From: Sipunculus nudus
Taxonomy: Eukaryota; Annelida; Sipuncula; Golfingiida; Sipunculidae
Direction of reading: 5' to 3'
Length of the DNA stretch: 64,000 bases
NCBI GenBank assembly: GCA_026874595.1
Contig: CM049307.1
Coordinates: 77,352,643 to 77,416,642, forward strand
The notes under the pieces are model-generated. The model did no database searches. It had not been told where the DNA came from and saw only the letters and a list, made by a program, of their open reading frames with translations. A program made the position numbers and the translations under genes. Shown piece by piece: positions 8,476 to 59,375 of this stretch. Within the stretch, counting starts at the first letter, position 1. Each line of letters opens with the position of its first letter.

Positions 8476-8486
8476 CTCCCCCTCCT
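8476..8486 (-). other. Polypurine tract
   Basis: On the element strand AGGAGGGGGAG directly abuts the first base of the 3' LTR. This is the position and composition of a plus-strand priming site. Confidence 0.85.
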
Positions 8487-8595
8487 GTAAGAAAAAAGAA
8501 AGTTTTCTCAAAAAACTTTCTTTTTGCGATCACAATCACTATATTTTTACAATATTTCAACAATCATCTTATTTACAACATTACATAAACATCTC

Positions 8596-9974: not shown

Positions 9975-10084
9975 CTGGTACTGTTCTACACTGAATGTCT
10001 ACATCACACTTACAATCAGTATCTACTTTAACTGGGTCAGGGTCAGTTTTTAAACAAATAAGAGCAGTAACATGATGTACAACA

Positions 10085-11235: not shown

Positions 11236-11509
11236 CTGCCCTGGGAAACAAACATGAAATATCAGGGTCCTTATGCTTTTTTGCAATAAGTACTGACCTT
11301 GAAAATGCTGCGTCCTGTACGGACGAGTCGACAGACGAGTCACTAGTGACTCCGAGAGTGTTATTATCTGGACCATTATCCTCATGTTTGTTTTTCTTGG
11401 CCATTGATCTAGTTACAGCACATGAAGGATACAAACAAGGAATTTCCTGACTTTCAGGATCAGTGTCATGATCAAGTGACGGTATTTCTGTCACTATTGG
11501 TACAGGCTG

Positions 11510-11870
11510 TACTTTGTCACCTGCAACATCATTGCCTACTTGCAACATAATTCCCTTTAAGGGTAAAGTAGTTTTTATGCCCACAGTAATATTCCCAGAA
11601 ATCAAATTTGACTTTAAAAGTATACTGTGAAGTAGGACTGAAATGTGCTTGTCTGAAAAACACCATTAACAAGTGCATGTGCACCAGTAAAAGACCTATT
11701 AGAAAATGGCAAAGTGTTTGTGTAGGTGTAGAATCTGAAAAATCACTTGAAAGTGACACAAAACCATCATGTATGAAAGGCTCAAATAACTCCATTTCAG
11801 AGTTAGGAGAGGAATCTACTACCTCAGTTTCATAAAACAAAGAACTGACACAGATAGTGCCAGTGATCAA
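11510..11870 (-). pseudogene. Retropepsin-like protease remnant of the LTR element
   Basis: Pieces in different frames resemble the protease region of Gmr1-like elements: FEPFIHDGFVSL, then LPFSNRSFTGAHALVNGVF, then LPLKGIMLQVGNDVAGDKV, followed by PVTRSMA-like CAVTRSMAKKNK. No intact DTG or DSG active-site triplet is visible; where one is expected the frame reads SDSTPTQ. Frame changes and stops break it. Identity rests on position between gag and integrase and on the LPLKG...GND pattern. Confidence 0.55.
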
Positions 11871-12289
11871 TTCTTTTTCTGAGTCATTAAAGGAATCTAC
11901 ATCCTTATTACAATCTAACTCCTCATGGGAGTCAACAGAGGAATTTTCCTAGCAGAAACAAACTTCTGTTTCTCATAAGAGGACCTGGCCTAATTTGAAA
12001 TACTCTCGCAAGAGGCATAAAAGGACTTAGCCTTATTTAGAGGATACTCCTCGCAGGAGTCTTGAAAGGACCTAGCCTTATTAAATTCCTCGGATGAATC
12101 AAATGAGGTATTTACCTCGCAAGCTAGGGATTCTTCTTTAGAGTCAGACGGCACGTTGGCCTCCGTAGCATCAAACCCTTTATTAGAGTCAATAAAGGAG
12201 TTGTACCCCTCATTTACATGAAAAGAACCTGGATCTTGTACTATGCTATGCATAGATTTTGAAACAAAACCAGAAGGTTTACCCTTTGG

Positions 12290-13379
12290 TTTATTTGCAA
12301 GTTTCCAGCGGTCAGATATAAGATGACCTTCCTTTTTGCAGAAAATACAGATTTTATGGACTTTGTTGTACTATCAGGACTACTTGTACTGGGTTACTGC
12401 GCTTTAAACATCTTTTGACCATACTGATTTCCGTTCTTGTTTGTAAAGGACTGGTTTAATTTGCTAGTAAAGGACATTTTATGTATTAATGAATAATCAT
12501 CAGCTAATTGAGCTGCAATGTCAAGTGTTTCAGGACTCTTCTCAACAAAAATGTTAACATCTGCGTTAATGCAGCGCTTAAATCCTTCAAGCAAAATCAA
12601 CTGGCGCAAATTGTCATAATATTTCATTACATTTTTTGCACTACACCAGCGATTAAACAACTGCTGTTTTGTCCTAGCAAATTCGACATAGGCCTGTCCT
12701 TTGCGCATTTCCGATTTTTGAATTTCTGGCGGTAAGCCTCCGGAACTAACTCATAACCTTTTAGGATTAACCGTTTAACCTGGTCATAATCAGCAACGGT
12801 TTCTACTTAAAGCTATGTATTTTCGCTGGCCTTGCCAGTCAATACACTTTGTAATACATAGTCCAATTTTCCTTAGGCCATTTAAAATTTTCAGCTACCT
12901 TCTCAAGGTGTAAGAAATATTCATCAAGCTCTTTTTCTTGAAAAGGTGGGACAAGTTTAATGTGTTAAGTAATATAAAAACTGCAAGTTGGGGCAGCAAG
13001 TAGGTCATGTTGTATTTTAAGTCTTTCTAACTCCAGTCGTTTTAACTCAATTTCTTTTTCTTTTTCTAGTCTTTCTTTTTCTAACCTTTCATGTTCTTTC
13101 CTCTCTTTTAATGCTAGCTCATGTTACATTTCTAACGTTTATAATTCTAACTACATAGCAAGGCTGTCATTTTTTTTATGTTTCCACTTCACTCTCTTCA
13201 ATTAAACCCATGCTAACCAGATCTTGCATGATTGTAGCAATGATATCAGGCTTTCTCAAAGCGTTTTACACACCTAGCCCTAAGTGTTGTCCTAAACGCA
13301 ACAACTGATCTTTTGTCAACTGTTCAAGTTGATTAGGGTCGGGATCGACAACAAATGTCTCAGGTTTGGAATCTGCCAT
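12290..13379 (-). pseudogene. Gag of the LTR element (broken)
   Basis: The start ATG is at 13379-13377, about 145 bases after the primer-binding site, and reads MADSKPETFVVDPDPNQLEQ, then LTKDQLLRLGQHLGLG before the first stop. A lysine/glutamate-rich coiled-coil stretch follows (about 13000-13140), then KLVPPFQEKELDEYFLHLEK and YVEFARTKQQLFNRWCSAKN, the SCAN-like capsid fold seen in vertebrate-type gypsy gags. Near 12310-12355 a CCHC knuckle reads CIFCKKEGHLISDRW, with the last cysteine replaced by arginine. A serine- and acid-rich linker (12253-11990) separates gag from the protease remnant. Confidence 0.8.
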
Positions 13380-13523
13380 GTTAAGATGTTAAAACAATAA
13401 CAAAAAAACACTGGGAAAAATCCTGTTAAAAATGTATTTCAAACAATATGTAATCTTGTAAACAATGTATGATAAAACAATATGTCTCGGTCAAGGCCTA
13501 ATAAAGTTTCAAAACTGTTAAGC

Positions 13524-13541
13524 TTCCCGGACGAGCCCCCA
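13524..13541 (-). other. Primer-binding site, tRNA-Pro type
   Basis: On the element strand TGGGGGCTCGTCCGGGAA lies seven bases inside the LTR end. It is complementary to the 3' end of tRNA-Pro at 17 of 18 positions, judged against the well-known proline-type primer site. Confidence 0.85.
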
Positions 13542-13548
13542 ATTTTTA

Positions 13549-14120
13549 TGTTATGGAACCTTATAACAACAGATCACGTAGTAGTGACGAGCACAAATTT
13601 TGTCATGCAGATAAAAAAATCAGTTTCTGAGAAATCGGTGTTTTTTTGTTAACAAATAATTCTAATTTATTCTTAAAAAAATACTAACATTACAATACAC
13701 TAAATCAATACAATTACACAGTATAACAACAGTACAACAGCAAATCAATACAATTACACAGTATAATAAATAAAGTGTACAGTACCTTGATACCACCACT
13801 GTCACAGTGACAACAGGTCCTTTAAAACCAAAATTCCACGTGAACAGTTCAAATAGTCCAAGGTAAAGCTTTTGCAATATTCCCGAAAGCAAACTGGAGA
13901 CAGGCCGCAATAAATCTGCATAGAGTTCGTAGAATCACTTACACTACTGCAATTATCGGATAGGTCCAAGACTGGTTCACACACTTCCGTGTCCGCTGGA
14001 ATATTTCTCTCTCCTCTCTCGGCTCTAAACACAGCCCCTTATTTATAATTTTTCACCTCAAGCCAAGAACTTTCCATTTCACGAACAATCCAAAAGAACC
14101 CAAAAATACATAATACACAC
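13549..14120 (-). repeat. 5' LTR of the Gmr1-like element, truncated
   Basis: Aligns with the inner ~570 bases of the 3' LTR (shared AACAAATAATTCTAATTTATTC, AAATCAATACAATTACACAG and CATTTCACGAACAATCCAAA segments). It lacks a stretch of about 45 bases and ends abruptly in ACACACACATATATA at about 14120. The terminal TG/CA has a mutation (TGTTATGG). Confidence 0.85.
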
Positions 14121-25969: not shown

Positions 25970-28335
25970 CCGTCGTCCGTCTGTCCGTCTGTCCGTTAAC
26001 CTGGCACAAATCGTAACCGCTGGAATTAGAATCTTGTAACTTTACATTCTGAGAGGTCAATGAAAAATCTCCTTGGAAACCAGAAATTAGGTCTCTGTTA
26101 CCCATATCCTTCCAGCTATTGGGCCCCAAAGTACCCCCCAGAAAAGTCCAAAATTTCATACAAAACCTTCAATATCTGATTAACTACTTGACTGATGGTC
26201 ATGATTTTTGGCATACATATTGATCATGAGATGTTCCATCACTTCCTGAAGACTGGTGGCGCCACCTGTATTTTTTTTCGATTTTTTTTCGAATTTTTTC
26301 TCTATTTTTGATACCTTTAAAAATGTGAACATCTGTTAACAAGGCACAAATCGTAACGACTGGACCTAGAATCTTAATTCTTGACACACTGAGAGGTTCA
26401 TGAAAAATATCCTTGGAAACCAGAAATTAGGTCTCTGTTTACCATATCCTTCGAGCTATGGGGCCCAAAAGAACCCCCCAGAGTAGTCAAAAATTCCATA
26501 CAAAAACTTCAATATCTCAATAACTACATCACTGATGGTCATGATTTTTGGCATACATATTGATTATGAGATGTTCCATCAGTTCCTGCAGACTGGTGGC
26601 GCCACCTGTATTGTTCGATTTTTCACGATTTTTTCCTCTATTTTTGAGACCTTTAAGGATGCTGTCATCTGTTAGCTTGGCACAAATCGTAACGACTAGA
26701 CCTAGAATCTTCATTCTCGATACACTGAGAGACCTATGGAAAGTCTCCATGGAAACCAGAAATTAGGTCTCTGTTACCCATATTCTTTGAGCTATGGGGC
26801 CCCAAAGTACCCCCAAGAAAAGTAAAAAATTTCATACAAAAACTTCAATATCTCATTAACTACTTGACTGATGGTCATGATTTGTGGCATAACTATTGAT
26901 CATGAGATGTGTCATCACTGCCTGCAGACTGGTGGCGCCACCTGCATCGTTGGATTTTTTATGATTTTTTTTTCTCTATTTTTAAGACCTTTCAAAATGT
27001 GAACATCTGTTAACAAGGCACAAATCGTAAAGACTGGACCTAGAATCTTAATTCTTGCCACACTGAGAGGTCCGTGAAAAATCTCCTTGGAAACCAGAAA
27101 TAAGGTCTCTGTTACCCATATCCTTCGAGCTATGGGGCCCCAAAGTACCCCCGCCCCCCAGAGTAGTCAAAAATTTCATACAAAAACTTCAATATCTCAA
27201 TAACTACATCACTGATGGTCATAATATTCGGCATACATATTGATCATGAGATGTATCATCAGTTCCTGCAGACTGTTGGCGCCACCTTTATTGTTTGATT
27301 TTTTTACGATTTCTTCCTCTATTTTTGAGACCTTTAAGGATGCTGTCATCTGTTAACGTCGCATAAATCGTAACGACTGCACCTAGAATCTTCATTCTTG
27401 ACACACTGAGAGACCTATGAAAAGTCTTCATGGAAACCAGAAATTAGGTCTCTGTTACCCATATCCATTGAGATATGGGGCCCCAAAGTACCCCCCAGAG
27501 TAGTCAAAAATTTCATACAAAAACTTCAATATCTCAATAACTACATCACTGATGGTCATGATTTTTGGCATACATATTGATCAAGAGGTGTTTCATCAGT
27601 TCTTGCAGACTGGTGGCACAACCTGTATTTGTTCGGGTATTTTTTTACGATTTTTTTCCTCTATTTTTGAGACCTTTAAGGATGCTGTCATCTTTTAGCG
27701 TGGCACAGATCGTAACAACTGGACCTAGAATCTTCATTCTCGATACACTGAGAGACCTATGAAAACTCTCCATGGAAACCAGAAATTAGGTCTTTGTTAC
27801 CCAACCCTAGAGCTATGGGGCCCCAAAGTACCCCCCAGAGTAGTCAAAAATTTCATACAAAATCTTCAATATCTCAATAACTACAACACTAATGGTCATG
27901 ATTTTCGGCATACATATGGATCATGAGCTGTGCCAATAGTTTCTGCAGACTGGGTTCGCCACCTCTATTTTTTTTCAAATTTTTACGATTTTTTTTTCTC
28001 TTTTTTTGAGACCTTTAAAGATGTGGTTATCTGTCAACAGGGTACAAATTGCAACAACTGGACCTAGAAACTTCATTCTTGTCATACAAGGAGGCCCATG
28101 AAGAGTGCCTGTGGAAACTTGAAATTAGGTCTCTGTTACCCATATCCTTCAAGCTATAGGACTCTGAAGTATCCCTAAGAATAATGGACAATTTGATACA
28201 AAAGCTGAAGTATCTGAACAACTAATGCAGAGATCACCATGATTCTTTGCATGGATATTGACCATTAAGTGTTTTTATTAGTTTCTGCAGACTGGTGGAG
28301 CCACCTGTATTTTTGTATCCTCCAAAACGAAGTTT
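25970..28335. repeat. Minisatellite array, ~340-bp unit, about seven copies
   Basis: The phrase GATGGTCATGATTTTTGGCA recurs at about 26192, 26535, 26872, 27216, 27553 and 27893, with a weaker seventh at 28237. Each copy has CAGACTGGTGGCGCCACCTG (exact core at 26255, 26595 and 26931), CTATTTTTGAGACCTTTAA, AATCGTAACGACTGGACC, CTCC(T/A)TGGAAACCAGAAAT and GGGGCCCCAAAGTACCCCC. Copies differ by a few per cent to perhaps 15 per cent. Non-coding. Confidence 0.92.
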
Positions 28336-28344
28336 TGCAGATAC

Positions 28345-29492
28345 TATGTTTTTGACCGGGTTCCTCCGCCGCCACGTTTGTTTCCAGAGAGCTCCTCTGA
28401 GAAAAATGGACCGATTTTTCCGAAACTTACACTAATTATCTAGTCACATGTGAACTAGTGCCTAACCAATTTGTGTTGACCTCTGACCTTTCCCCTCTAT
28501 CCAGCATCCATTTGTGCGTCTGATCCACACATAAACCCTCATATCTCGGGAACCGTTTGACCAATCAGGAAATAAAATTTATACAAATGTAGCCCTTGGA
28601 TTGCATTATAACATACACAAAAATGGTGGCGCCACCTGTAACCATGTTTGCACAGTGTCCATTTGTTCATCTGCCTTGGGTTAAAATCACTCATATCTCT
28701 GCAGTGAATTGACTAATTCACCTGAAATTCGGCATGCATATACATCCAGGATAGCTTTCTTGATTTTATGACAGATGGCGCCACCTACATTCACGTTCAC
28801 GCTGATCACATCCAAGCTCATATCTCAGGAACCGTTTGACCGATTGGGCCAAAATTTTGCATGTGTATAGATATCACATAGCTCTTTATCATACGCAAAA
28901 CTGGTGGCGCCACCTGCAACCATTTTTGCACAGCGTCTGTCTGTTTTCTGCTGTGGGATAATGTCACTCATATCTCGGCAGTGGTTTGACATATCTGCCT
29001 AAAATTTTGCAGTTTTATACATCCTGGATAGCTTTCTTGATTTAATGACAGTTGGCGCCACCTACATTCTAGTTTATGCTGCAGATATCCGAGCTCATAT
29101 CTCGGGAATGTTTGAACGATTGGGCCAAAATTTTCCATGTGTATTGATCTCACATAGTTCTTTATCATACACAAAACTGGAGGGGCCACCTGCAACCATT
29201 TTTGCACAGCGTCTGTCTGTTTGTCTGCCGTCGGCTAAAATCACTCATATACATGTAGTGGTTTGACTTTTCTGCCTAAAATTTTGCATATGTATACAAC
29301 TTGGACAGCTTTCTGGATTTGTGGTAGGTGGCACAACCTGCATACACATTTAGGCTGCAGACATCCATGCTAATATGCAACATACCTTACTCTATTTTCC
29401 CTTGCCACTCAATCCATGCCTCACTTCAACCGTTCCACTCTGATTTTTGGCGGATACACGTAGTCACTTGTCGGCTACCCGTATTCTAGTTT
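28345..29492. repeat. Minisatellite element, ~277-bp period, copy 2
   Basis: Same orientation and same end sequences as copy 1 at 21880-23272, with about three units. Exact GGTGGCGCCACC palindromes lie at 28625-28636 and 28903-28914. It abuts the 340-bp array directly. Confidence 0.85.
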
Positions 29493-29699
29493 TTAAAGTT
29501 TACACATTTTTTCTCTATTTTTGAGATATATTAATACAGACTAAATCTTGGCCTGTTGGTTAATCTGTTTGATGCTTCAGTTGAATGGGTATATACTACC
29601 ATTCTGATGATAAAATTTCCTTTAGCGAATCTCTTCCCAGTCAGCTGAGCGTCATGACCCATGGGTCACTTGTTATATAACCCGTTCCTGCACACATGG

Positions 29700-30495
29700 T
29701 AGTGCGGGTTAGTGATGTGGTAGTGGCGCGCGGAAAAAAAATCCACAGGTTATATTGTACCCGGTGTTGAAATTTATATAAAACTCGTATGATATTCCCA
29801 TATTTATTTTATTTTCTTTACGGTTGGCATTGGCCTCCGGGTGCATGTCGATTGTGACCAGTATACGTTCAGGACCTTTGGGGTCAGGTTTTTTTCAAGG
29901 ACGTTCCTCTAAACGTATAAGGTTGGGTGAAATCTGTATGAATTTTTAAAATAGAATCTATTTCATAAGGGCGTTATTGGCCTTGGTAAACGGATAGTTA
30001 ATATCCTTTTTTTTGCACCCGTATCTTTGGTAATAATTGATTATGATGAAACATATCTTTGGGTTGTTTTTTAGTACCCGTAAACCCAGTATGGTACTAT
30101 TCCTGTATCATATTGTATCATGAACATTTTTCTCCTTTTTAAAATCGCCTGTATCTTTATGATATATGTTTATCTTTATGATATTATGTTTAAATCCTTA
30201 GATGTTTTTTAATGTTTTCGTCCATTTCAATACGATATTCTTGTTTGTTTGTGAGTGCGGTTATTTTTTTTTTTAATTTCGCGCTTGGAAAAGTAATTCC
30301 GTAAGTCAAGTTGTATTTTAAAGTATTGATATTACCATCTTCTGTGTGCTTTGCTTTTAGTCTTATTAAGGGTACTGTACTGTCTTTGAAAAGAATGCCG
30401 TTTAAATTTAATTTGGATATTTTATCACATATTTTTTTAATTAGGTCGTGCAATGCTTTAATTGGTCCAAGAGGCACAGTTAATTGCAGAACTGG
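29700..30495 (-). pseudogene. Coding-like stretch of unknown identity
   Basis: On the minus strand a 104-codon open frame between stops runs from about 30500 to 30190. It contains PLGPIKALHDLIKKICDKI and FKDSTVPLIRLKAKHTEDG and ends ENIKKHLRI-stop. A second open piece about 300 bases further along (near 29900-29730) reads KKPDPKGPERILVTIDMH and then KENKINMGISYEFYINF. Both have a lysine-, isoleucine- and asparagine-rich composition like real AT-rich genes, and they differ from the low-complexity frames around them. I do not recognise the family. Stops separate the pieces, so it is probably a broken gene, possibly viral or transposon-derived; that last point is a guess. Confidence 0.3.
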
Positions 30496-30499
30496 TTTG

Positions 30500-32850
30500 A
30501 CCGATCATCACATTTGACACTCAGGTGTTTTCACGTACATAATATAACGTCTGTTGCAAAATATATCGGGGATAGCTGCAGCCATCAGAACCAACTTTTA
30601 TCGGAACACTGACTATGTGGCTGGTATGCAAATGAAGTCATCAATGGTGTCATATCTTAGAAAGAGGTGGAGTTCTTACCTCTGGAAAAGCCGCTACGTT
30701 TTTAGCCATTGTTGGTTGGTTGTTGGCTGGATAAAGCAAAAACTTCCAAAAAGAATTAAAAAAAAAACTTTGTCGAGGCGTTGACAAGGACCAAATAAGT
30801 CTTACCCCATTAAATGATCATGCAGATCCAAATTTAGGGGAAGATCGGTTTGTTAAATTTGATATGTCGTAGGTATATGCGCTCTACTGAATGCTATTTT
30901 TAGTTCTTAATCAGCTCAGCTAGAGCCCCCTTGTGGGTAATGATGGTACTGGAAAATATTTCAGCTCAGATTTTTTTTATCAGCATTATGTTCATTTGGA
31001 TTATATTTTTTTAAATTTGAATGGGGGGGGGGGGGGTAATGACCAAGTATTTAATATAATGTCGGGGAAAGATAACTTCTAAAATATTAAAGCTTTTTAT
31101 GTGCAGTTTGCTTCTGTTGTTGACAGGTTGCAATGGGCCTGCAATTTTTTTAAAATCCTGCAAGAATTAATGGCACAGATTATGTGAGCGTACCAAACTG
31201 TAAAGAAGATTCAATTCGTAATTTATGTTTAAAAAATATTTTCAGGGGCCTGGGGAGCTTGGTGTTATTATGTTATTATCTTCAGATTTATAGTACCATG
31301 TGTTTTGGACGCAGAGGTGATAAAAGCTTCATGATTGTGTTATAATGTCAAGCATATATTATTTGTACTTTGAAGAATTTACTCTAATAAATAATTTTAA
31401 CTATATGGGTATAAATCAAATTAGAATTTTATATACACGTTATTAAATTTCAGAAACGGTGTATATTTATTTTACGTGATATAGGTGCAACTTTAAAACT
31501 ATATTTTCAAGGCAGGCATTAACAAAGTACCCTCTAGTGTCTGTATCTCAATTATTTTTTTCAAGGCAATCTTTCATGATTTTAAGCAGTTTCCCGAAAC
31601 ATTCTTTACTTACATAATCAGTCTTTTCTAAGAGAGCAAAACTGCACCCAGTGTAGACAAGATAACACAGTTCCTTCAACAGAGTGACCGTCTGACCGAC
31701 AATTTTCATCAGACAAATCATATCACGACGGTGACCAACGGATGTCTTCTTTTCTAACCTTTTACAAGGCTTTCGACTTTGTCCATCATATTTTACTGCT
31801 TTTCAATTGTTATTCTTCAATTTAATAAATGATAAATTGTGTGTATATAACAAGTTATGTAAATAAGGTATGGTTTTCAGGCACTTTTTTCAGAAATCAC
31901 TGCGGGCGGGCGGTATTTTATTTTTTACCTTTTTTCGTATGTTTCTATAAATTTGTCATATGATCAGGAAAAAGCATGTAAATAACAGGTTTGTTTTTGC
32001 TAAACAGGTAAGGGCAGTACATAACAAAGGAAATCGTATCAAAAAATGTATTATTTTATCTTCACTTGTTACTGTTCACTGCATGCTTAGACTAAGAACA
32101 AGTTATGAAGATTTTGTTACAACTTGTGACCCAATAGTTCGCAGGGTACACGTGGTCAAATTTGTGACAGATGATGCAAATGGAATAAAATAACAGCTAT
32201 GGTTAATCATTGGATCTTTAGGTTCAAAATCATGGTTTCTTACTTTTTATATATTATTCTTACTAGCTTATTACCTTTTGGAATGAAAAGAAGATATTGA
32301 AATTGATGTAAAAATTGTGCATGAGTTTTCCCTGTTCCACTCAAATAATATATATAAGAAACTAGATTGATGTATATTGTACCAGTTAAGTTTTATTAAA
32401 GCCCAGATTTGCACAGTTATACCTGCATCTATGAGAAAAACTTCTGTAGAAAGGCTAGTATGATTATAAAGAACAGGTAGTCCTGGAGTATTATTATATA
32501 AAAAATAAAGAAACCTATTATAACTAAACATTCATATTAAACAGTATTTTTAAAAAAAATTAACAACACTTTAAAGATATGTTCAGATGTTGCACTGTGC
32601 AGTCTGAAATATACTGTAACTTAGAATAGTGAAACACCGATTTCAATCAAAATACGATAAATAAGGCTGTACTCGACACACAGATGTGAAGCTTCTGATA
32701 GATGGCACAAATTTCCAAAATATGGAAAAGAACCCCCCCCCCCCTCCCCCTTAGAACACACTTGAGATCATTCCTGACAATTCAAGACCAATATTGAGCA
32801 TTTCTGAGGGCCAGAGAGGAGTTGCATTACAACAATTAAGTGCCACTCTC

Positions 32851-32884
<34 letters not shown>

Positions 32885-33030
32885 CATGATTTGCAAAATT
32901 AGGCTCTCCCAGTGTGAATGACCCAAAAATCGAAAGAGTAAGCTAAGTATTTTTAGAGTAATGCATGCTGGTATGAAATATTCTGTTCCATGTATTTTTG
33001 TTATTCTTTTTTATGCATGCTTGTTATTGT
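30500..33030. other. No firm gene; possible LINE scrap
   Basis: AT-rich DNA with a G-run at 31024-31036 and (TA)n at 32853-32882. Around 31735-31795 one frame reads FLTFYKAFDFVHH, resembling motif A of LINE reverse transcriptases (DFSKAFDxVxH). It is too short and isolated for a call. Confidence 0.35.
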
Positions 33031-33516
33031 TGCATTTGTAGAAAAAGATGCCAAGGAGGATATGACGGAGGAAAATGTAGGTTCCTTGAAGATAATATCT
33101 TCTTTAAAATTATATTAATAGTTTAATAATTTACAGTTTCAACTGTATTAGACTTTTTTAGATTCAAATAATTTCTATCAATATTAACCATAGCTATTTA
33201 TCAGTTGCCATTGTCCATATCCTTAAACAGATCACATTATTTATCCAAATATACAAGTTAAACCATTCATAAATTATGAAAAAAATGTTAAAGAATGGAA
33301 GAAGTAGTGAAGCTTAAGTAGTGACTAGCAGCTGCAGTTTCATATATATACTTTCATCTTCAGATGTATGTATGAATGATCACTCATTTGATCCCATGTT
33401 TGAAAAAGAAAATGTTCCTAAGGCATAAATAACAACAAATAAAACCCAATTCAAGTAATTTATATCCCCATTTGTTGATAAACACCCTCTCATACAGATT
33501 TATTTTCCCAAATCAG

Positions 33517-34620
33517 GTGTATGATCGTCTGAACACTCTCGGTGTGTGTTAATCCCCAGAGGGAGCACAGAAATTTGTCAAAGGTGTAGGAGATCACTAT
33601 GTCACTGTTCTAATGCAAGCCGCAAAAGATGGACATTATGTGAGATTCATTGGTGACAATCTTAATTTCATGATTGACATTAAATATGAATCAAAAGACC
33701 AGCACAAACACATGGAACACATGTTTGCTTCCTGTGCCTTGATAGATCCAGGTCTGAAAGATGTTTTCAGCTGCAAACCTGAAGTGCCAAGAATCTCAAT
33801 TCAGCAGTTTGGAGTAGAGCAGTGTGTCTTTTCAAAGGCTGAATACCGGATGATAAAACAGGCATGTGTAAAATTGGTGGTAGATGTTATAGATAAATAT
33901 CGACCAAACTTGAGTTTTATGAAAGACTCAGTACCTAAAACTCTCTAACAGTCCCATGCCAAAGAACTCTCGATGAAGACCACAGTGATTCCTCTTCCTG
34001 TTCTGCCATATAATGAACAGTCATACCAGGATGTGGTAAAGATTCTTGACCACTATGAGGAACTCATCAAACAAATGATTGATGCAAAAATTTGGCCCTC
34101 TGACACTAAAATTCACATAGGAGAGGACCAGTTGACAAGGGAGCGGTTCTCGCATGCAAAAATGTGGAGGCTAGGGAATTTTGACCCTTACTCCCGCTAT
34201 GATCATCTAGGTCCAACTACCTTTGAGTTTTTCTACTTAGGGATGAACTATCTGGAAACGATGATTTTTGGGACTCTGTGGAACAAAGAGGGACCAGTAG
34301 AGCTTGGAACTATGAAATGTGAGAAAGAAAGGATTCTGAGACATTCTGTTGATCCAGATGTAATGAAAGCCTATGATGCTGACAAAGACTATGTACAGTT
34401 GTACGTAAATGCCACTATAGTGGAGGCAACCATGCATTACTTTGGCATGGAAAATAGGAATGATGCACCTTCAAAAAACAAACCTCAATTTGTTGACAAA
34501 GCTGCTCAAAAGGAATGGGTCTATGAGAATATTGGGAATATAGTTGACAGATATGCCTTTCCCTGTTGGAGTGGACATGACAAAGAAGAATTTGTTGAAG
34601 GCAATTTCAGATTATTCTAA
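33517..34620 (+). pseudogene. DUF6589-like gene, N-terminal and middle part, with stops
   Basis: One frame runs from an acceptor (TTTTCCCAAATCAG) at 33517 to the stop near 34620. It starts VYDRLNTLGVC and has in-frame TAA codons at 33550-33552 and 33946-33948. Recognisable family pieces are RFIGDNLNFMIDIKYESKDQ (the GDN box), then the GGDQLTxER box as HIGEDQLTRERFSHAKMWRL. The middle helical part TFEFFYLGMNYLE...LGTMKCEKERILR follows, where relatives usually have E-W-H-type residues. The function of DUF6589 proteins is unknown; they are multi-copy and probably transposon-derived. A 37-base possible micro-exon with good borders (33041-33077) lies upstream. The stops make this copy a pseudogene. 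Confidence 0.72.
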
Positions 34621-35221
34621 TTTTTTATGCAAGTTATTGATTTTAAAGGCACTAGTCACATTATTCATGTTAAATCCCAATACATACTTATGGAGACAAC
34701 AGTGAGTATAACTCATATGTATTGCCAAACCAATATTCAGAATGATTCTGTTTTGTAAATATAATCCAACAAGAGAAATATTTTGATACTGCTATAAAAC
34801 TTACTCATTCCATTCTTAGTAATTTTTATGGTACATTGGAACTTGTCTCACTTGCCTAATTTGACCATCTGCTTTCTAACATTTTCTTGATTAACAATAG
34901 TCCATATATATGTTGGAACAATGGGTTATTCTTAAGTAATTCTGTCATTGATTTCTAGAAGGAAATGATAGTGATGGCCCATTAAGGTTAAAATTAATAA
35001 TTCTTGAAGATGTTTCAGACACGCATAACAGTTTGTGACATCTCAAGCACCAGGAAAGTTGAAACACTAGAGTTCAGCAGAAGAGAAGCACTTAATTGTA
35101 TTGGATAACTGTTTATTTTACAGGTCCATGCTTTATGTAGACCCATGTATAAAACTATATTTTCACATTATGAATCTGTTTTCAGGATTATTAATCTTCT
35201 CTCATTCCCTTCTCATATTAG

Positions 35222-35817
35222 AGACAGTTGAGGTGCAGGCCTACACATCTGTGGCTCTGTCAAATGGAGAAATGGTATGCATACCATTATGTTAGAGAAA
35301 TGTTCAACAACATCGCAAGGAAGAGGCAGATAAAGTGAAAGACTACAGTCACTATGTCCTTGAAACATGACTCACTTTCAGGTACTTCTTATATCTGTTG
35401 AAAAGGCCTGACATGGACAATATTGTTGCGATCTTAACATTGATGATGCTCCAAATGAATTCAAGGAATCCAAAGGCAAAATATCCACTCGAAATACTGA
35501 GAATGTTAGTGCAGCAATATTCTCTGTTAACTGAAAGAGAGGCATGCATAACTCTGTATTCCTGTTTTGTCAATACCAAAGGTAAAGCAGACTCTAATGT
35601 CCCAGCAGACCAACAAATGGAGTGGATAGTTCAGAAAGAAAAGAAACACATAAAGCATATGATGTCAAACAAAAATGGTGGCAAAACTGAAACAGGGTCA
35701 TCTGCAGTTGCTGGTTTGGGTGAAATAGCAGATAATTTTGACACTAAGGCATGTGCAAGAGTTCGTTGTCAGGGTCACCATGTCAATGACCCAAGCACTG
35801 ATGAGTTAAAATGATGA
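35222..35817 (+). pseudogene. DUF6589-like gene, C-terminal part
   Basis: Two likely exons. 35222-35274 lies between TCATATTAG and ATG|GTATGC. 35296-35817 follows TTATGTTAG in the same frame. It reads RNVQQHRKEEADKVKDYSHY, then an in-frame TGA at 35368-35370, then RYFLYLLKRPD...KYPLEILRMLVQQYSLLTE, VNTKGKADSNVPADQQMEWI and the final NFDTKACARVRCQGHH. The last segments match the family's R-x-KY..E.L, VNT.G..G.NIP.D..MEH and closing helices. The link to the upstream part (34620-35222) is inferred from domain order; its exact donor is not clear. Confidence 0.68.
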
Positions 35818-35819
35818 AT

Positions 35820-36634
35820 GATCTCAGACTTGTAAACCCATTTTACCATCAGGAAGGTAGATCTTACAAGAATTTTCCATCAGTGCCAAAATCACACATT
35901 AAATAAAATTAATTGGTTTGAAATTCCATGCTTGGGTCAATAAACAGAAAGAATTCATTGCTTAGAACATACTATCACTGTTGTTATAATTTTTAATTTT
36001 GATTTGTTAAGCTGTTTACAACAGTGTAACTGTTTTTTTCTTTAAATCCTAGCTTAACATAAGAATAACAAGTCTGTTAATAACTAGTATAGATATTTGT
36101 TGATAAAGTTCCTGTCATGCTAGAATAACCGTTTAACAGTCACATCTGTAAGGCATTAATGTGAAGGAGGAAAACTTGAAAAAAGATTCATTTCTAACAA
36201 AAATATATTTTAATATCCTTATATAACAGGCTAACAAATCTAAATGACAAATTATCTTAACAGTGATAATATCATGATATACTATATTATGATTAGGAGT
36301 CAGTGTTACCTTTGGGTTTTACAGAACAGTATGTCAGGTTGAGCCAGTGGAATAAGAGAAGGGCAATGTTTTCATATTTTGTCAAATAGTTAACAGTAAT
36401 TTCAGACAGCATTTGAGATCAGAATGTATTAACTAGAGTAAATCTTCTTATTATATTACTTATACTAAGGTCTTCATGTAGAATGACCCAAGAAGTGCCC
36501 CAATATTTTCTGTAATGTTCTGCCACTTGAGGAAATTCTTTAGCAAAAACAGATGGCTGTGAGTATTTGGCAATGTCTTTTGCTAATCTTTCTGTTTAAT
36601 AGGATGACAGCCCTATTATACACTCTGGGAAAGG
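35820..36634. other. Space between two convergent broken genes; no gene
   Basis: AT-rich; no open frame or repeat I can name. It separates the 3' ends of the DUF6589-like gene and the RecQ-like gene. Confidence 0.45.
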
Positions 36635-36975
36635 TTAATCAATTAATTTGTTCTCTTGATTAAAGTAATGGGTTAGGCAGAACTTTGCATCCTCAGAAAC
36701 ATGTTGATCAGCAGGCAGTTCCTCGTCCATGGGAGCATAGAAGATGCATTCAATACATGAACATTCAGATCTGCAATTGTCACAACAATTGTGCAGATCT
36801 TTATCTGGCCTATCAAAGTCAAAATAATTAAGGAGATATTTTCTTCTGCAGGTCTTTGAATGACAATACTCCCTCATATAATCCTGTAGATGGTTATGGT
36901 TTGCTGCTATATCACTGGCATTGTCCTTTGATGGTTGCTCATCACGTCCACAACGCCCAATTCCTTGAATATACG
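36635..36975 (-). CDS. RecQ-like helicase, terminal exon (motif VI and zinc-binding domain)
   Basis: Starts after acceptor TTTCTTTTATAG. The first two bases join the single base left by the upstream exon to give METYIQGIGRCGRD, helicase motif VI. Next come a linker and a RecQ-type zinc-binding segment, MREYCHSKTCRRKYLLNYFD followed by CCDNCRSECSC. Four cysteines in this pattern bind zinc in RecQ enzymes, which unwind DNA 3' to 5'. The frame runs without stops to TAA at 36637-36635. The usual arginine finger QxxGRxGRD is kept, with C for the usual A/T at one position (GRCGRD). There is no HRDC or other accessory domain. Confidence 0.82.
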
Positions 36976-37018
36976 CTATAAAAGAAACAGACAAATGTAC
37001 AGGTGCACGACTGTTAAT

Positions 37019-37812
37019 TGTTACAGGTGCTCTTTTTATTGTGTGTCACGGGCGTGGCTCCTGTTGTGGCGTTCGTGTCTGGCCGCGTGTTACATTCTAT
37101 GTTTAATCCATACTGGCTGAACTCTCGTCATGTTAGCCTTGGGTTTTCACGCCTGGCCGGGGTCACGTGATGAGCCTGGTGTGTGGAGATACACAGCGCT
37201 TTATTTCTAGAGAATTCCTGAAACGCGTGTTGCGCAAGATCTTATAAACTGTTCTAGAAGTGGAAAATTTTCGACTTGAGGTGTGAAGGTATATAAAGGG
37301 GTGTGTTTTAGAGAGAGAGATCAGAGCAGATTTTCCAGGGGACGCAGCAGCGTGTGTGGGTTTCTGGGACCTTATCCGACGGATGCGGCAATTATAGATT
37401 TTTAAAGACTTTCTCCTGGATTTTATGCATTGGACTTCAGTTTACTTTCTGTGTTGTTGCAAGAACTTTCTACTGGACTGTCATTCTCCGAGAGTTTACA
37501 TTTAAAGGACTTATCGTTGTGATGGTGTTGGTATCCAGGTACTGTGCACATACATTATTTTCTCTGTGATTGTTTGGCTTGTTGCTGTACCGCTGTTTTA
37601 CTGTATATTTGTATTGATTTTGTGTATTGTATTGTTAGGGTTGTTTTAAGAATAAATTATAGTTATTTGTTAACAAAAAAACACTGACTTCTTTATTCAT
37701 TCCCCTAGACATTTCCCGCTGCCTAGTGTTACAGAATCTGATTTTTTTATCTCCGTTACAGAATTTGTGTTCATCACGCATACGTGATCTGTTTATATTA
37801 GGTTCCGTAACA
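37019..37812 (+). mobile_element. Solo LTR of the Gmr1-like family
   Basis: 794 bp starting TGTTACAGG and ending TTCCGTAACA, homologous over its length to the LTRs at 7702-8475 and 13549-14120. It is flanked on both sides by TAAT (37015-37018 and 37813-37816), a plausible target-site duplication. Solo LTRs arise by recombination between the two LTRs of a full element. It carries TATATAAA at 37290-37297 and AATAAA at 37651-37656. Its sequence is less decayed than the Region 1 LTRs. It lies inside the intron between the last two exons of the RecQ-like gene, on the opposite strand. Confidence 0.92.
37290..37297 (+). promoter_or_regulatory. TATA box in the solo LTR
   Basis: TATATAAA about 270 bases into the LTR, followed 20-30 bases later by a GAGAGA-rich stretch. 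This is the usual place for an LTR promoter and start. If active it would transcribe antisense to the RecQ-like gene. Confidence 0.55.
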
Positions 37813-38284
37813 TAATTTACAAAATATTTATTATTATTACAAAAGTCAATAACAGATTTCTATAAATTATTTTCAAACTTTTTACAGGCATCTGACAATA
37901 TCTTCTTAATTTATGTAATAATTACTCGTACAATATTTATAATAATCCAAAGTCCAAAACTAAATCACACAATCTGAATTTCTGAAAATTAGAATAAAGA
38001 AAAATGTGAAATATAGGCAGAGCACCTTTGATTTTTTCACCAATATTACCTAACAACTCTTGGCTATCACACTTCTGGCTCTAGTGTATTTTATTTAGTG
38101 TTTGCAAACTGTGGCATATATCATGCACAAGTAAAGAGAAACAAGAGCACTTTATGGAGAAAAAGTACTAATTAAGTATTAATATTAAAGTTCAAAAATA
38201 ATTGTTTGGGTCCCTTGTTTTAAAACTGAATCAGTTTATGAATTTTAACTGTACTGAATAATTTTGTATGAACTAAATCCTTAC

Positions 38285-38426
38285 TTTCCATGGTAGATAG
38301 TGGTCCAATATGTATTACCTGCCGAACATCGGGGGGATCAGCTCCCATCCCATATGCCTCTGTGGCAAGAAGTAGGCGAAGGCTTCCTTCTGGGTTCTGG
38401 AAACTCTTGGTGATAAGAGATTTCAT
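38285..38426 (-). CDS. RecQ-like helicase exon (motifs IV-V)
   Basis: Bounded by acceptor TTTTTTACAG and donor GGAAA|GTAAGG. It begins MKSLITKSFQNPEGS and continues LRLLLATEAYGMGADPPDV and RQVIHIGPLSTME. These match the RecQ signature in which a short stretch of F..G...LLATEAFGMGxDxPxVRxVIHxGxP forms motif V. It ends in phase 1, exactly what the next exon (36975) needs. It is open throughout. Confidence 0.85.
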
Positions 38427-38817
38427 CTGTAAAAAATTACACAGACATTTGTATTTCAGAACAAGAACAACCAAGTATGTTTTTTTAGTAATCCACTGTC
38501 TGTGATGTTAACTTCATTGAATGTATGATCATTTTCATGGTGTCAAAGTATGGTATTCATGTAGTTTCACATTTTACAGGAGACATGAGAAACTTAAGCA
38601 AAATGTAAATGAATGTGTTAATTTTCTATCATATATAACTTGTTTGTATAGATGTTGTTTTACGATAAGAACAGGAAACAAATGATAAAATGCCTGCTAT
38701 ATCTGCAGATTTGCTAAATATGATTTGTTTATGTTTGTTATGTCATATAATACCTGATAAGAGAAACAAATTATAAATTTTGCAAAACAGCACGTGTGCA
38801 TTATTATTGACACCAAC

Positions 38818-39105
38818 CTCACTTGTTTGAGGTGCATGATGTTGAGCCACCATGCCACCAAGTTCTCTGTTTGTTGCTTCTTGCTGTAACTGGTTGTCTT
38901 TAAGAGAGTTTTCCACAGCATGATGGTACATCTGACCACAAAACTTCAGTGGTAGATAAACAATTGTCTTATCACAGTGAGTCCCCTCATGACAGAGCTG
39001 CTCAAGAATTTGACCCATCACCTTCTGCACTGATTCATAAGCTGTGGTCTCACTTCCACAAGTTGGCAGGCGTTTTTTTTTTTTACCTCCAAGTAAATAT
39101 TTGGT
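38818..39105 (-). CDS. RecQ-like helicase exon (start of second RecA lobe)
   Basis: Ninety-six codons between acceptor TTTGTTTACACAG and donor AGTGAG|GTTGGT, phase 0 at both ends. It reads TKYLLGGKKKKRLPTCGSET...KVMGQILEQLCHEGTHCDKT, then IVYLPLKFCGQMYHHAVENS. The last part matches the strand that opens the second helicase lobe (TIIFCRT...C...Y). The run of four lysines is encoded by a long A-run, a likely site of length change. The first helicase lobe, with the Walker A and DExH boxes, was not found upstream as far as 41 kb, so the gene is probably truncated or those exons are lost. Confidence 0.7.
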
Positions 39106-39769
39106 CTGTGTAAACAAAGCAAAAACATGTTACTTATTGTAACTGTATATGAATAACGTTTCCCACAGTTTATCATTACTTTTCCTACCATTTAAGTATG
39201 TTGGGGGTGCATGATATGGTTACATATTTAAGACATTTAAAATATTTAACTTGGATTTCCTTATTAATTTTCTATATCTCATTTCACTGTCGTAACAGCT
39301 TTACCAGGCAGTCTCCTTTAGTTTTCTAGCCAGCTATTCACTAGAGGTAAAAATTCTAATGCACTGTCCACTGTCCACTTTAAGTTACTCCTGGTAAGAT
39401 GTAAAGTGTTATTTTCAATAAGAGGGCAAGACAAAAACAATCAATTTTCTCAAACTTGCATAAATGCCTTCTTTTCAGTGTTAAATAGGTCACTATAAAT
39501 ACTCTCTGCCAGTTTAATGGGACATAATCAGGAGCAATAATATGCCTATTCTCTCACAATATCAGTTCAGTTTTACTCTATATGAAACTTTCCCAGCAAA
39601 ACTATCCCAGCACACTGTCTTAGTACCTCCCTTTGAGCTGTTTAACACCTTCTTATGCATGGTTTTAAAGTTCTAGTTGGTAAGTGTGATATTGTTATGT
39701 TTAAACGTTTTCATAATATTTCTTCTCACCACTACTTTTAATCGCTTTAATTAGTTACCATGTCCTCAC

Positions 39770-39937
39770 CTTGGTTTCCATCCGTCAGAGGAAACTGAAC
39801 CCAGTCTGGCATTCCAGTTTCTTCTGATCCCTCTCCCTCTCTAGCAAGCAGCTTCAGCAGGAGCTTTCTATTGGCAGCCTGTTCTTTGAGGATGTCACCC
39901 AAAGTCACTTGGACTTTGGTTACAGTTTTAAGAAGCT
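39770..39937 (-). CDS. Candidate coding exon, helical, possibly DUF4806-like
   Basis: An open stretch reads LLKTVTKVQVTLGDILKEQA, then ANRKLLLKLLAREGEGSEET and GMPDWVQFPLTDGNQ before CAAG|GTGAGG, a good donor. The acceptor (GATAAATAG) is weak. A leucine-rich helix followed by PxxVxFPLT resembles the region before DUF4806 domains in invertebrate proteins; I am not certain. Its donor phase (1) does not fit the frame of the RecQ-like exon at 39105, so it may belong to another transcript or a lost exon may lie between. Confidence 0.35.
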
Positions 39938-39949
39938 CTATTTATCCAT

Positions 39950-41855
39950 GTATCCATAAATATTAAACTATAAACATAACTCCTTATAAAAGAGATCTGA
40001 AGACCAAATCAGCATATGTCACATAATCATAGGATGTGTAGCATATTCATTAGCCAGATATAAAAATAATAACTTTTAACTAATAACAATTAAGTGCGTC
40101 AGTTATTACTCTAACTTTTACTGTCAGTATAAAGATTTGGCAGTCTTATTAAATATACTTTTGATTCAGAAATTATCATCGGTTTCACCTTTCTTTGTTT
40201 TGACCTTAAACACTATTCGTTGGGTTAACACTTTCGTGGATTAATCGTTCCTGTTTATGCATTTTATCAGAACTCATTTGTGAACAGACCTGAAAATAAG
40301 CCAAAGATTGTTCGGTAAACATTCACTGGAATTTTATATCTTTAAGACTCGTTAAATAAAAAAATAGTCTTGGCTCATTGACACAACAACTAAAATACCT
40401 TTTGTCTTAACTGAATCGTGGGTGAAAATATTCAGATAAATCTTGATAGATTTCTTCGGGATAATTCCACAAATGAAGTCATGCATTACTAGGTTAATGA
40501 GAGCAAGTGCCGGCTCTAGAGATTGGTATGTCGTTTGTTCAGAAGAAACCCCGTTTCCACTCCAGCGGGCACCAATGCACCTCCAGCACGAGGCCACAGT
40601 TAAACTGGGCCCCCGCTCAAAATAGTGCTCAGCTGACCGTGTCTCATCTCCAAGCCCACTGACTTACTAGGTTATCTCTCTCGCACGGTTTAGCTCTAAA
40701 TGTTTAGTCCGCAATTAACGGGATACAGTAATATGGTGGAGTTGCCTTGTTTACAGGATGCAGTTATCTGGTTGTTCCGAACATCACACGGTACTTTTGC
40801 CAGAAACCATGCATGCAGAAGTACCGTCACTCGGCCGCATCAGCGGCTAGTCGGCTAAGCCTGTCATTACCAGCATCAAACATGATTAATGAAATGATCA
40901 GTATCTATTGTTGTTTCTTCAAATAAAAATTGTTATTACTAAAAAAACAATTAAAACGACGAGAAGTGCAAAATGAATAAAGGACAAGCCGACTTGGTAA
41001 TATCATGATATTTTAATCGGCGGCTCTCGAAGCAGAGGTAAGACATTCCATTCAATCCAATCAGGATCATCCTTATGCACACTAGCCATGACAAACACGA
41101 CTCAGTTAGGACCCTCTACTGAGTCGTGACACAAGCCAAATTTAGAACCGCCCTGCAAGTCCATGCCTGGCTATTTAACCGTATCTCCGCATACAGTCAG
41201 CAGACGGACCGCAGGCAGAAATCTCCCATACATGCAGAACAAAATACGATTATATTGGGTTATAACGGAATATTTCACACACATGGTGGGTGTAGTTGGA
41301 GAGATAAGAAACTTATTAAAAGGTCCAGCGGGTTTATTTGATGTGACAAGATACTTGTAAGCAATGAGGCGTTGTCAAAAATGACGAAAATATTTGCATC
41401 CTCATGGGGCCTTATAATGCGATCCTCAGAGCTAGATGTCCAGGCACTCTGGCAAGCCAGTGATCTGGCCATAATGCCAGAGGGCCGATCTGGCGCTATA
41501 TGCACACCTGACCTAGCTCTCATCACAGTGGTGACTGTGTCAATTAGTTTAAAGTTATTGTTACACTAGTAACTGGACAGTTGAGGGGTAAAACGCTTTG
41601 TACTCCCCGCTGACGACCTTGGTTCAAGGCAGGTTGTTTTTCTCCAGGCAGTCCATGTTCCTTCCCCTCTAGACACTATTTGTGTAATGACTAATCGTGC
41701 AATCCATGTATAATAAAGTTTATAGTTTAATTGCGCTAACATTAGATCACAGACGGACGGTGCATTAAAATGTGAGCCTTCTTGTTTACAACTTTCTTGT
41801 TGATAAGTTTCTTGCTCTCAGGTTAAAAGCAGTAATGAAGACGACATCTGACATG
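39950..41855. other. No gene identified
   Basis: A relatively GC-rich patch at 40510-40680 could be a 5' region for the minus-strand RecQ-like gene, but I see no clear first exon. Other open frames (40352-40597, 41275-41569) show no domain. Confidence 0.35.
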
Positions 41856-41857
41856 AA

Positions 41858-42258
41858 GGTTAATGATAAAATGAACGATTAGGCTATTCTTGTGTTCCTT
41901 ATCAAGTTTTACCAATATTGCAGGAGCTGAACTTTTTACCAAATTCTTAAGGGTCATCAAAACACCCTCGGAACAATTTCCATCTGAAACAATTTCTCAA
42001 CCGAATAATAAATCAAGACAGAGCCTGTGAAGGAACATGGAGTGGACCTGCTGGTGAGTTCTCTTTCTGACTTTATGCCTTTAAAGGACACAGAAGATTA
42101 TTTTTTCCCACCGTGTTGCCTTCATTTGCAAGAAATGCAATGATATGCTTGCACTGTATCGTGTTGTGTATCTTCCTGATAATAAATCCACATACATTGG
42201 AAACAACATTTGCAACAGTACTAAAGCAATGAAAATCATCAGTTGTCTGTATTATTGT
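41858..42258. repeat. Dispersed repeat, copy 1 (CKKCN-type)
   Basis: Aligns in the same orientation with 63327-63727: TATTCTTGTGTT..TTA..CAGTTTTA, GCCTGTGAAGGAA(C/T)ATGGAGTGGACCTG and CTTGCAAGAAATGCAATG-like segments are shared at roughly 70 per cent. In one frame both copies read HRVAF(I/L)CKKCN, VV(Y/H)LP and NSTxAxK at equal spacing. This suggests descent from a coding element with a C-x2-C motif. I do not recognise the protein. Confidence 0.65.
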
Positions 42259-43660
42259 ATTTTAAATAACAGGTACCAGTGTATATTTAATAAACGAATG
42301 TGTGACTTGAACATTCATAAAAAATATTACTGAATAAACTTACACGCATCGGTGTGAAAGGTGGAAGGTAGATATGCTTCATCGTGAGTTTTGGGGCGAG
42401 TCTCGCGGGTCGTTCTACGTCACAGTTATAGTAGAGCTGAACATCCTTCTAAGAAGCAGTCTGTGGTATTCAAATTTGAGCCTTTATTTCAAAATATTTA
42501 GGAGATAAAGTTTATATATTTACTCGTCAATATTTACTACGAATCATTAAAGATTGAATAGACCATGATGAAAATTTGCACAAAAATATACTGCATCTGT
42601 AAAATAAAAATACACCACTTATGTTATAGTGCAAAATATCCAGCAGAAAACGGAGTATTGACATTTATTGGTTCCACCATTGGCACCATAACATCAATGA
42701 AAAGTCTCTGATATATAGACATATAAAATCAAAAGAGGCAGGTATTAAGCATATTAAGTTGTTTCAAGCAGGAAATACATCTGATTCAGTTTTAATATTT
42801 TCTTGCCAAACACATTATGTATTTTTAAAATCAATCTTAAAAACCATACTGATAATCGAAATCAACTTTCTTTATTGTCTCATGTTTTCCAAAAATAGTA
42901 TAATTTTAAATAACAACCGTTATGGTCATTATGTCAAACTTTGATCGGCGTCATGTTACATTTGTAAGATGTCTTTAAATTACAAAGGTATTATAGGTTC
43001 AACTCGGGCAGATTCTCACACTCTGAGGCAAGTTTCTCATACCATAGATTCACAGTATGGTTAACCATGGAATCACCGCTTAGCTAATAGTTCATGCTAA
43101 GGTGAGATATTTATGAAATGAGCAGATATTGGTAGTGTCGCAGGGGACAAGATTTCGCCCTTAACGTGTCCAGGCTGCGAAAAAAAATCGGTTGTCCGTC
43201 TCGGAGATCTGTTCGTCTTGTTCCATCTGCCGCCGGGCTCTCTCCTGATTGGCTGTTGCCATGACACCAGGTGTCAGGAAAAGTTAGTTCTCATATCAAA
43301 GACACACTTTATTGCATCGGCCCCTACTACATTGGGTTGGAATAATGATAAATACTTTTTCATCATATTTGTGGGGGTTTCTTTCTTGTCAATCTTGCCA
43401 GAAACACACACATAGGAAATACTATTTATGCTGAAAATGACTAGTTTCATGTGACTGAATCTGTATTGAAAAAATTCTACTTTCCGTAAAATAAGTGACC
43501 ATGGATCTTGACTTTCAGATAGTTTACATAAAGGTGATGCATGAATTAATTATTGATGTAATGATCTGGTGAAAAATATTTGTTAAGGAACCTTGAGCAT
43601 AAGAGTGCTCAAAAATCATGTTTTTGCCGTAGTGCTTAGAAAATAAGTAACTGGCCCAGT
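42259..43660. other. No gene seen
   Basis: AT-rich; no supportable coding sequence or named repeat. Confidence 0.4.
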
Positions 43661-43778: not shown

Positions 43779-44834
43779 CCTAGCCCAGTCGATTCATTGG
43801 CTTAAACATAATCTCTCTCTTTATCAGAGCCACCAAACTTACTCTTGCTGTTTCGCAATGCGAAAACAAGTACTACCACCTCGTGGCAAAATATATAATT
43901 TAATTGAGGCTTTCTGGCCACTGGAACGGAGTTTCGTCTATTGGTACATGAAATCACGTTTTGATTTAAACGTTTTAGTAGCAAACGTATTTCTGAAGGC
44001 CAGGCAGGGCTTGTTGTTCTTATTCTCATTATTATGAACAAATCAGCCGAAACACATAGTAATATATCCTCTTAATTAAATAAATGTATCCCTTAAAAGT
44101 CTAGTAAGGACCCATTAAGAATGACCATGGTTAATTTTTACTGAGTACATACAGGTGCGTCAAGGAATCCAAAATTAACAAATCGCACATGGTAAGTTTC
44201 AGTGTCATAGCTGGGCTTCAACAGTCATGTCCCTAATACTAGCACATGCACAGATGATAATTTCATCTCACCTGATTATAAGCTCAAAGGTTTATTCGAT
44301 CTACCACTGCATAACTCTCCTTTAGTTATTAACATTCCTGAAAATCGCTGATTTGCTACATTTCCCTACGCTACGATTTATTCACATCCCCTAAGTCCAC
44401 ATTCTCGTCTAACACTTGAGTTGGCACAGCATTTGGAATCGTTTCCATCTGGTCCTCTTCCACCAGTTAAGAACCACCTGGTTCACTACTGGCTCGTCCA
44501 CTAACCAGGTCAAGATCTCCTTGTGTTTGGTCACTAATGGCAATCTTAAATGCCACACAGCGCCTGCGACGTTTACACGGGTTTTAAATGCACTTTTTTT
44601 TTTATTTTCTCAGCATGAGTACGGTCAATATTCTGCAGATGCTGGCCATGTAACACCCAATTGCCATGGGTTTGGTTATTTCTTTTTTTATCTGATGTTA
44701 GTAGATCGTAGTGACCTCGTTTCAAGTCCTAGTGCAAATGAAAACTAATAGTTAATATGCCATCCAGTGGCCATGCCATTATCCTCACACCGAGCAGATT
44801 AAGAAAATATTATCCTAAGAGGGAAGAAACTGAG

Positions 44835-58480: not shown

Positions 58481-58560
58481 TAATATGCTTTATTAATGTT
58501 TAAATATTATTGTACAAAATATAACTAATTTAACATGTAAACATAAATATATGTAAAAGG

Positions 58561-58773
58561 CATTGTTCGAAATAAACACGTTTGCTAAAAAATCATAACC
58601 ATGTGACACGTTTTCTTGTGCTTGTCTGATTATCTTGATCACGTGACCCAGTGTACTGGTCTTGTGATTTGACGATACGTAACCTTTCATGTATCCCCAG
58701 CACAACTCGATAGGATTGAGATTGGAGTGGTAAGGGGGAAGTTTAGGTACCTGAATAAGGAGGACACGCGCTG

Positions 58774-58777
<4 letters not shown>
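58561..58777 (-). pseudogene. IS630/Tc1-type (DDE_3) transposase C-terminal fragment
   Basis: Reads VLLIQVPKLPPYHSNLNPIE, then LCWGYMKGYVSSNHKT and IIRQAQENVSHGYDF. The LPPYHxxLNPIExxW pattern is the end of the catalytic domain of IS630/Tc1-mariner-type DDE transposases, and the glutamate of NPIE is the third catalytic residue. The fragment is cut off upstream by a (CA)n repeat, so the two catalytic aspartates are missing. Confidence 0.7.

Positions 58778-58819
<42 letters not shown>
58777..58819. repeat. (CA)n microsatellite
   Basis: About 43 bases of CA repeat abutting the transposase fragment. Confidence 0.97.
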
Positions 58820-58824
<5 letters not shown>

Positions 58825-59022
58825 CGGTGTTAATTATTAATATATTCTTAAACATCGTGATTGGTTTTAGATAAATAATATTAAATTTACCTACTAATAG
58901 TAGTGTTACTCAATATGTGTATTCATTTGGGTTATTCATATGTCTGAATTTTTTATGTTTACGGTAATTGATTTATTTTGTACAACTAGACATAATAACT
59001 AATACGAGGCAATATGTATGGC

Positions 59023-59375
59023 TCAGATGTTGGCGCCATGTCTGCTCCCCACTGGTGGTCCCAGAAGTCTGAGGGCTGTGACGTGATTAGCATCCTCACA
59101 TGAAATTACAAAAGAACGTTTCTGATTCACGGGAACCACAACTTTCTGGTTGATTTTATTGAGAACAATGCGAACCTCATCGCAATTAAAAATTAAATTA
59201 GGTTTTCCCTGTAAATTATTATCAACTAAAGTTGTTTGTAAAAAATTAAAATAATGTTTAACAACATTATTGTTGGCCATGATGGCTTTTCTTCGGTCCA
59301 GCATTCCTGGATTGCTTGGGCGTAGCTCTTGGTGTCTTTTGGCAAAACCCCGCGATCACTTCTTGGTGGGCCCAT
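59023..59375 (-). pseudogene. pogo/Tigger-type (DDE_1) transposase fragment
   Basis: On the minus strand SRGFAKRHQELRPSNPG...RRKAIMANN marks the end of the DNA-binding part; the tryptophan before SRG is a TGA stop. KPNLIFNCDE carries the first catalytic aspartate of the DDE_1 fold. NQKRSFVISCEDANHVTALR matches the following strands. The rest of the catalytic domain is missing. The usual DETG reads DEVR. The preceding DNA at 59400-59500 is a GC-rich insert. Confidence 0.72.

Follow-up and report, generated by a model that had tools for sequence, protein, structure and literature searches.

A 64,000-nucleotide stretch of the genome of the sipunculan worm Sipunculus nudus (NCBI GenBank assembly GCA_026874595.1, contig CM049307.1, positions 77,352,643 to 77,416,642 of the forward strand), hereafter the window, harbors a pseudogene of the DUF6589 family on the plus strand and, 820 bp away on the minus strand, the C-terminal half of a RecQ-like helicase gene, the two lying tail to tail in convergent orientation. 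On balance, this locus is probably the decayed relic of a two-gene DNA transposon, in which DUF6589 would be the DDE-type transposase and a RecQ-type helicase would be encoded on the opposite strand, an arrangement closest to that of the AcademH elements. An earlier note on this DNA had described the same layout, with a spacing of 0.8 kb, and had proposed that the two genes form a mobile unit. The layout is borne out by profile matches to both families. The proposed unit is plausible, given that a transposase accompanied by its own RecQ helicase has already been published, but for the same reason it is not a new kind, and the membership of both genes in one element is unproven. The features on which this reading is built are given below in window positions.

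33517..34617, plus strand: DUF6589 pseudogene, 5' block; PF20231 covers only 33838-34557; stops at 33550 and 33946
34618..35217, plus strand: inter-block stretch of about 0.6 kb; profile positions 245 and 249 are nearly adjacent across the gap
35218..35814, plus strand: DUF6589 pseudogene, 3' block; PF20231 match 35257-35766; stops at 35293 and 35368; last stop at 35812
36635..36975, minus strand: RecQ-like exon C, GIGRCGRDEQPS, RecQ zinc-binding domain, stop; Escherichia coli RecQ tblastn E 1.1e-4
38285..38426, minus strand: RecQ-like exon B; Helicase_C; E. coli RecQ tblastn E 5.9e-4
38818..39105, minus strand: RecQ-like exon A; Helicase_C covers the last part only (from residue 73); a run of 12 A inside

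The DUF6589 pseudogene

The plus-strand gene is recognized through two matches to the Pfam profile PF20231 that lie in the same frame. The 5' match extends over 33838-34557 (profile 17-245, E 2.3e-16; residues 96-335 of the query 33553-34617) and the 3' match over 35257-35766 (profile 249-406, E 5.3e-12), with scores of 59.9 and 45.6 bits against a curated Pfam cut-off of 27 bits, which places both blocks in the family. Because three in-frame stops, at 33946, 35293, and 35368, fall inside the profile-matched stretches, the copy is dead, as the earlier note had concluded. A fourth in-frame stop, at 33550, sits outside the profile cover in 33517-33837, a segment in which the frame appears to continue upstream of the match and which is therefore assigned to the pseudogene. 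The roughly 0.6 kb between the blocks may be either an intron or an insertion. The front of the gene was not found in the three plus-strand frames of approximately 26501-33555, where only two sub-threshold matches occur (E 0.074 and 0.1).

Three residues are candidates for catalytic acids, namely the aspartates of GDN (33655-33657) and GEDQLT (34126-34128) and the glutamate of KYPLE (35491-35493), the last of which lies in the 3' block and would be the final acid of the set. These picks lean on a reading of the sequence together with the motifs GDN, GDQ, and KYxLE, which we take to be typical of the family; in this copy, the second candidate site reads GEDQLT and falls within the profile match, and GDN lies outside it. 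A single-sequence fold model of the first block only is of too low confidence to use (mean predicted local distance difference test score 36.0, predicted template modeling score 0.24), and the short strands that it places near the first two candidate acids prove nothing. A PDB search with the same block returned four sequences, the best with an E of 0.21 and all with names that suggest no relation. No publication on DUF6589 was found by family name, and the mentions of PF20231, judged by their listings, concern unrelated topics.

Relatives were sought in viral and prokaryotic sequences. A viral contig collection yielded no relative for any of three DUF6589 stretches or of two readings of the helicase, and the DUF6589 block 33949-34617 had none among prokaryotic genome contigs, by a scan, or among phages, by tblastn; these searches say little, since they used single-sequence patterns and collections of viral and prokaryotic origin.

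The RecQ-like helicase remnant

On the minus strand, three exons (39105-38818, 38426-38285, and 36975-36635) join into an open reading of 256 amino acids, with AG and GT at the splice borders and phases of 0/0 and 1/1 as read by eye, in agreement with the claim of the earlier note that the helicase exons are open and matched in splice phase. The spliced reading contains Helicase_C at residues 73-154 (E 2.8e-11, 44.1 bits against a cut-off of 23.5) and RecQ_Zn_bind at residues 168-212 (E 9.9e-8, 33.1 bits against a cut-off of 25), the latter also being matched with an E of 1.7e-9 in the unspliced open reading frame (ORF) 36635-37045. Its top match in the PDB is the WRN helicase (E 4.8e-14), and a pairwise comparison with E. 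coli RecQ gives 46 identical residues out of 148 (31%). The first 72 residues, which make up most of exon A, have no profile match, and the placement of this exon rests on its splice borders and the last part of its reading.

In 5000 order-1 Markov simulations of the exons, no trial was free of stops (mean 15.3 stops). The earlier note had set the open helicase against the dead DUF6589 gene, a contrast that is no proof of separate fates: three stops in 410 matched DUF6589 codons predict 1.87 in 256 codons, for which the Poisson chance of none is 0.15, so that the open frame is weak evidence of the helicase having outlived its neighbor. For the same reason, the idea that the helicase is alive because it is open was considered and rejected.

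Upstream of exon A, the minus-strand ORF 39747-39941 is exon-like and encodes 64 amino acids, with Pfam matches at E 0.14 and 0.18 and none at 0.01, and its membership in the helicase gene is not shown. It was this ORF that had set the border of the unit at 39937 in the earlier note, and with only sub-threshold matches to go by, that border is not upheld. A dispersed repeat also lies just upstream of the helicase exons, at 39513-39655, and is 74% identical to 5874-6004 over 144 positions.

Comparison with known RecQ-carrying transposons

AcademH elements are reportedly helicase-encoding Academ DNA transposons of animals and fungi, to go by the title of Kojima 2020 (Mob DNA 11:15). The likeness of the present locus to them lies in the pairing of a helicase with what would be a transposase gene, the helicase carried by Academ elements being a RecQ helicase according to the passage cited (PMC3627910). 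As for the presence of the helicase in the same element, the RecQ-like remnant lies 820 bp from the DUF6589 pseudogene, inside an element boundary that is only a candidate. AcademH duplicates 9 or 10 bp of its target and AcademX 3 or 4 bp, a difference that, in the relevant passage, the authors consider to be seemingly tied to the possession of a helicase or a nuclease (PMC10045372); in fungi, AcademH is described as low-copy (PMC10799480). The present copy differs from AcademH in being dead and truncated, and it is compared with AcademH by description only.

Kolobok elements offer a second precedent. As described in PMC9587614, KolobokH, known only from fungi, has its RecQ gene downstream of that for the transposase, Kolobok-1_CCri of a red alga carries RecQ on the complementary strand, and Kolobok duplicates a TTAA target. 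The S. nudus locus, again compared by description, thus resembles these elements in combining RecQ with what would be a DDD/E transposase and, in the case of Kolobok-1_CCri, in the complementary-strand position of the helicase, whereas the restriction of KolobokH to fungi and the TTAA duplication set them apart. KolobokP, as described, likewise encodes its transposase and a partner enzyme on opposite strands, but with a His-Me finger nuclease in place of the helicase, and it has long terminal direct repeats. In addition, a fungal RecQ family is described as subtelomeric, with no tie to a transposase stated in the cited passage (PMC4522978).

Candidate element ends

The ends of the putative element were sought as a 14-bp inverted repeat with an outer direct repeat, the duplication length of 9-10 bp having been fixed beforehand from the AcademH passage in PMC10045372. 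Simple repeats were masked, as a first, unmasked scan was swamped by TA microsatellites. The top pair flanking both genes, 30180/43815, is weak; it is listed here with three pairs that flank both genes among the 22 generic inverted repeats detected in 30500-42500.

30180..30193, plus strand: candidate left end (weak); inverted repeat with 43802-43815, 13 of 14 bp; outer direct repeat 8 of 9 bp
43802..43815, minus strand: candidate right end (weak); pairs with 30180-30193
33110-33131/39958-39979: inverted repeat flanking both genes, 22 nt, 86%; overlaps pair 33115/39974
30627-30643/42114-42130: inverted repeat flanking both genes, 17 nt, 88%
32971-32987/41264-41280: inverted repeat flanking both genes, 17 nt, 88%

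The pair 30180/43815 scores 12, against at most 10 across 16 block shuffles and against best scores of 9 (48 sequences), 10 (43), and 11 (9) in 100 Markov nulls, and its 9-bp duplication length suits AcademH as described. With 3-4 bp duplications, the best score, also 12, falls inside the shuffled range of 12-14 in a scan that was not TTAA-specific; the pair 33115/39974 scored 12 in this search. None of the three generic pairs stood out, and they are regarded, along with 30180/43815, as leads only.

Other repeats and transposon pieces in the window

Several further repeats and transposon pieces are found in the window, one of them within the helicase gene itself.

37044..37733, plus strand: long terminal repeat (LTR)-like sequence with TG...CA ends, inside the helicase intron between exons B and C

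This sequence probably represents a later insertion that stands outside the two-gene unit, and no matching repeat flanking it was seen by eye. In a self-blastn comparison, 37501-37812 matches 7702-8021 (84% over 320 positions) and 37250-37815 matches 13546-14087 (68% over 584 positions). These two LTR-like stretches, at about 7.7-8.0 and 13.5-14.1 kb, flank a reverse transcriptase together with an integrase zinc-binding domain, and the minus-strand region 7702-14087 as a whole is LTR-retrotransposon-like (RVT_1 E 7.1e-34, integrase zinc-binding domain E 4e-20), with a SCAN-like match at 12394-12750 just below the cut-off (E 7.3e-6, 26.1 bits against 27). Elsewhere, a DDE_3 endonuclease remnant occupies 58493-58909 on the minus strand (E 1.1e-6, 29 bits against a cut-off of 28.6), beside which ORF 59026-59355 has no Pfam match at E 0.01, and a dispersed repeat pair, 41848-42257 and 63321-63723, shares 75.5% identity over 417 positions.

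Weighing the alternatives

A number of observations weigh against the locus being the relic of a single AcademH-like element. No second copy was found, so the ends are candidates rather than shared termini. With a 20-bp repeat, 30180/43815 scores 14, which is matched by one of six shuffles, and the similarity between its two ends fades past 14 bp. When other parts of the window were paired in 51 combinations, two of these scored 12 and 13; both involve LTR-like repeats, and the count stands. At the same pair, other duplication lengths reach 11 (5-7 bp, for which fewer matching bases are needed), the remaining lengths giving 10 (8 bp), 9 (10 and 11 bp), and 7 (12 bp). The three minus-strand frames, read with stops as X and starting at 39100, were followed to 54099, 48100, and 45101 and yielded no DEAD (first RecA-like) half for the helicase. 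Neither did a tblastn search of the whole window with E. coli RecQ, in which matches beyond exons B and C have an E of 0.079 or worse; the reach of that search is limited, as it found exons B and C but missed exon A. The gene is therefore called a RecQ-like C-terminal remnant rather than a complete RecQ helicase. Moreover, the link between DUF6589 and Academ is drawn by inference, and none of the literature found names DUF6589.

Given that other transposon pieces are present in the window, two unrelated remnants could simply be neighbors in a repeat-rich region, the one a dead copy of a DUF6589 gene or transposon and the other a separate, truncated copy of a RecQ-like gene. This explanation is unlikely but has to be taken seriously: the reverse transcriptase, the integrase zinc-binding domain, DDE_3, and the LTR-like repeats speak for it, as do the undetected DEAD half and the unproven shared ends, whereas the mere 820 bp between the remnants and the published descriptions of RecQ together with a transposase in more than one superfamily speak against it. 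It is improbable that the helicase gene is still alive, whether as a host gene or a co-opted one, with a first half that was missed or lies beyond the region tested, and that the dead element beside it is unrelated. Its 256 open codons and canonical, phase-matched splice borders would fit such a gene, but the decay rate of the neighbor accounts for the absence of stops with the chance given above, and scanning as far as 45-54 kb did not turn up a DEAD half. An element of the Kolobok type, with its RecQ gene placed opposite the transposase as in the red alga, is about equally improbable. The opposite-strand layout matches that described for Kolobok-1_CCri (PMC9587614), but KolobokH is reported there from fungi only and the best candidate ends here have a 9-bp repeat rather than TTAA, no TTAA-specific end search having been made. 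The relic of a two-gene, AcademH-like transposon accordingly remains the preferred explanation.

Proposed mechanism and implications

By analogy with DDE elements, the DUF6589 transposase would act by binding the element's ends, excising the element, and inserting it at a staggered target, and the RecQ-type helicase may unwind the ends or help to resolve or repair the joined product. More tentatively, and with somewhat more doubt than confidence, DUF6589 could provide the DDE catalytic core in a transposon lineage that is widespread among animals and fungi and carries a convergent RecQ gene, with the catalytic acids near GDN, GDQ, and KYxLE; both the wide distribution of the family and these motifs are presumed here.

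The copy preserved here is dead and truncated, and it reveals no new mechanism. Should such a lineage exist, a single mobile system would take in many of the annotated DUF6589 genes together with surplus RecQ-like genes, and with DUF6589 as the transposase of RecQ-carrying elements, an uncharacterized family would gain a function. The surplus RecQ-like genes in such genomes would then be transposon genes, not to be counted among the repair genes of the host.

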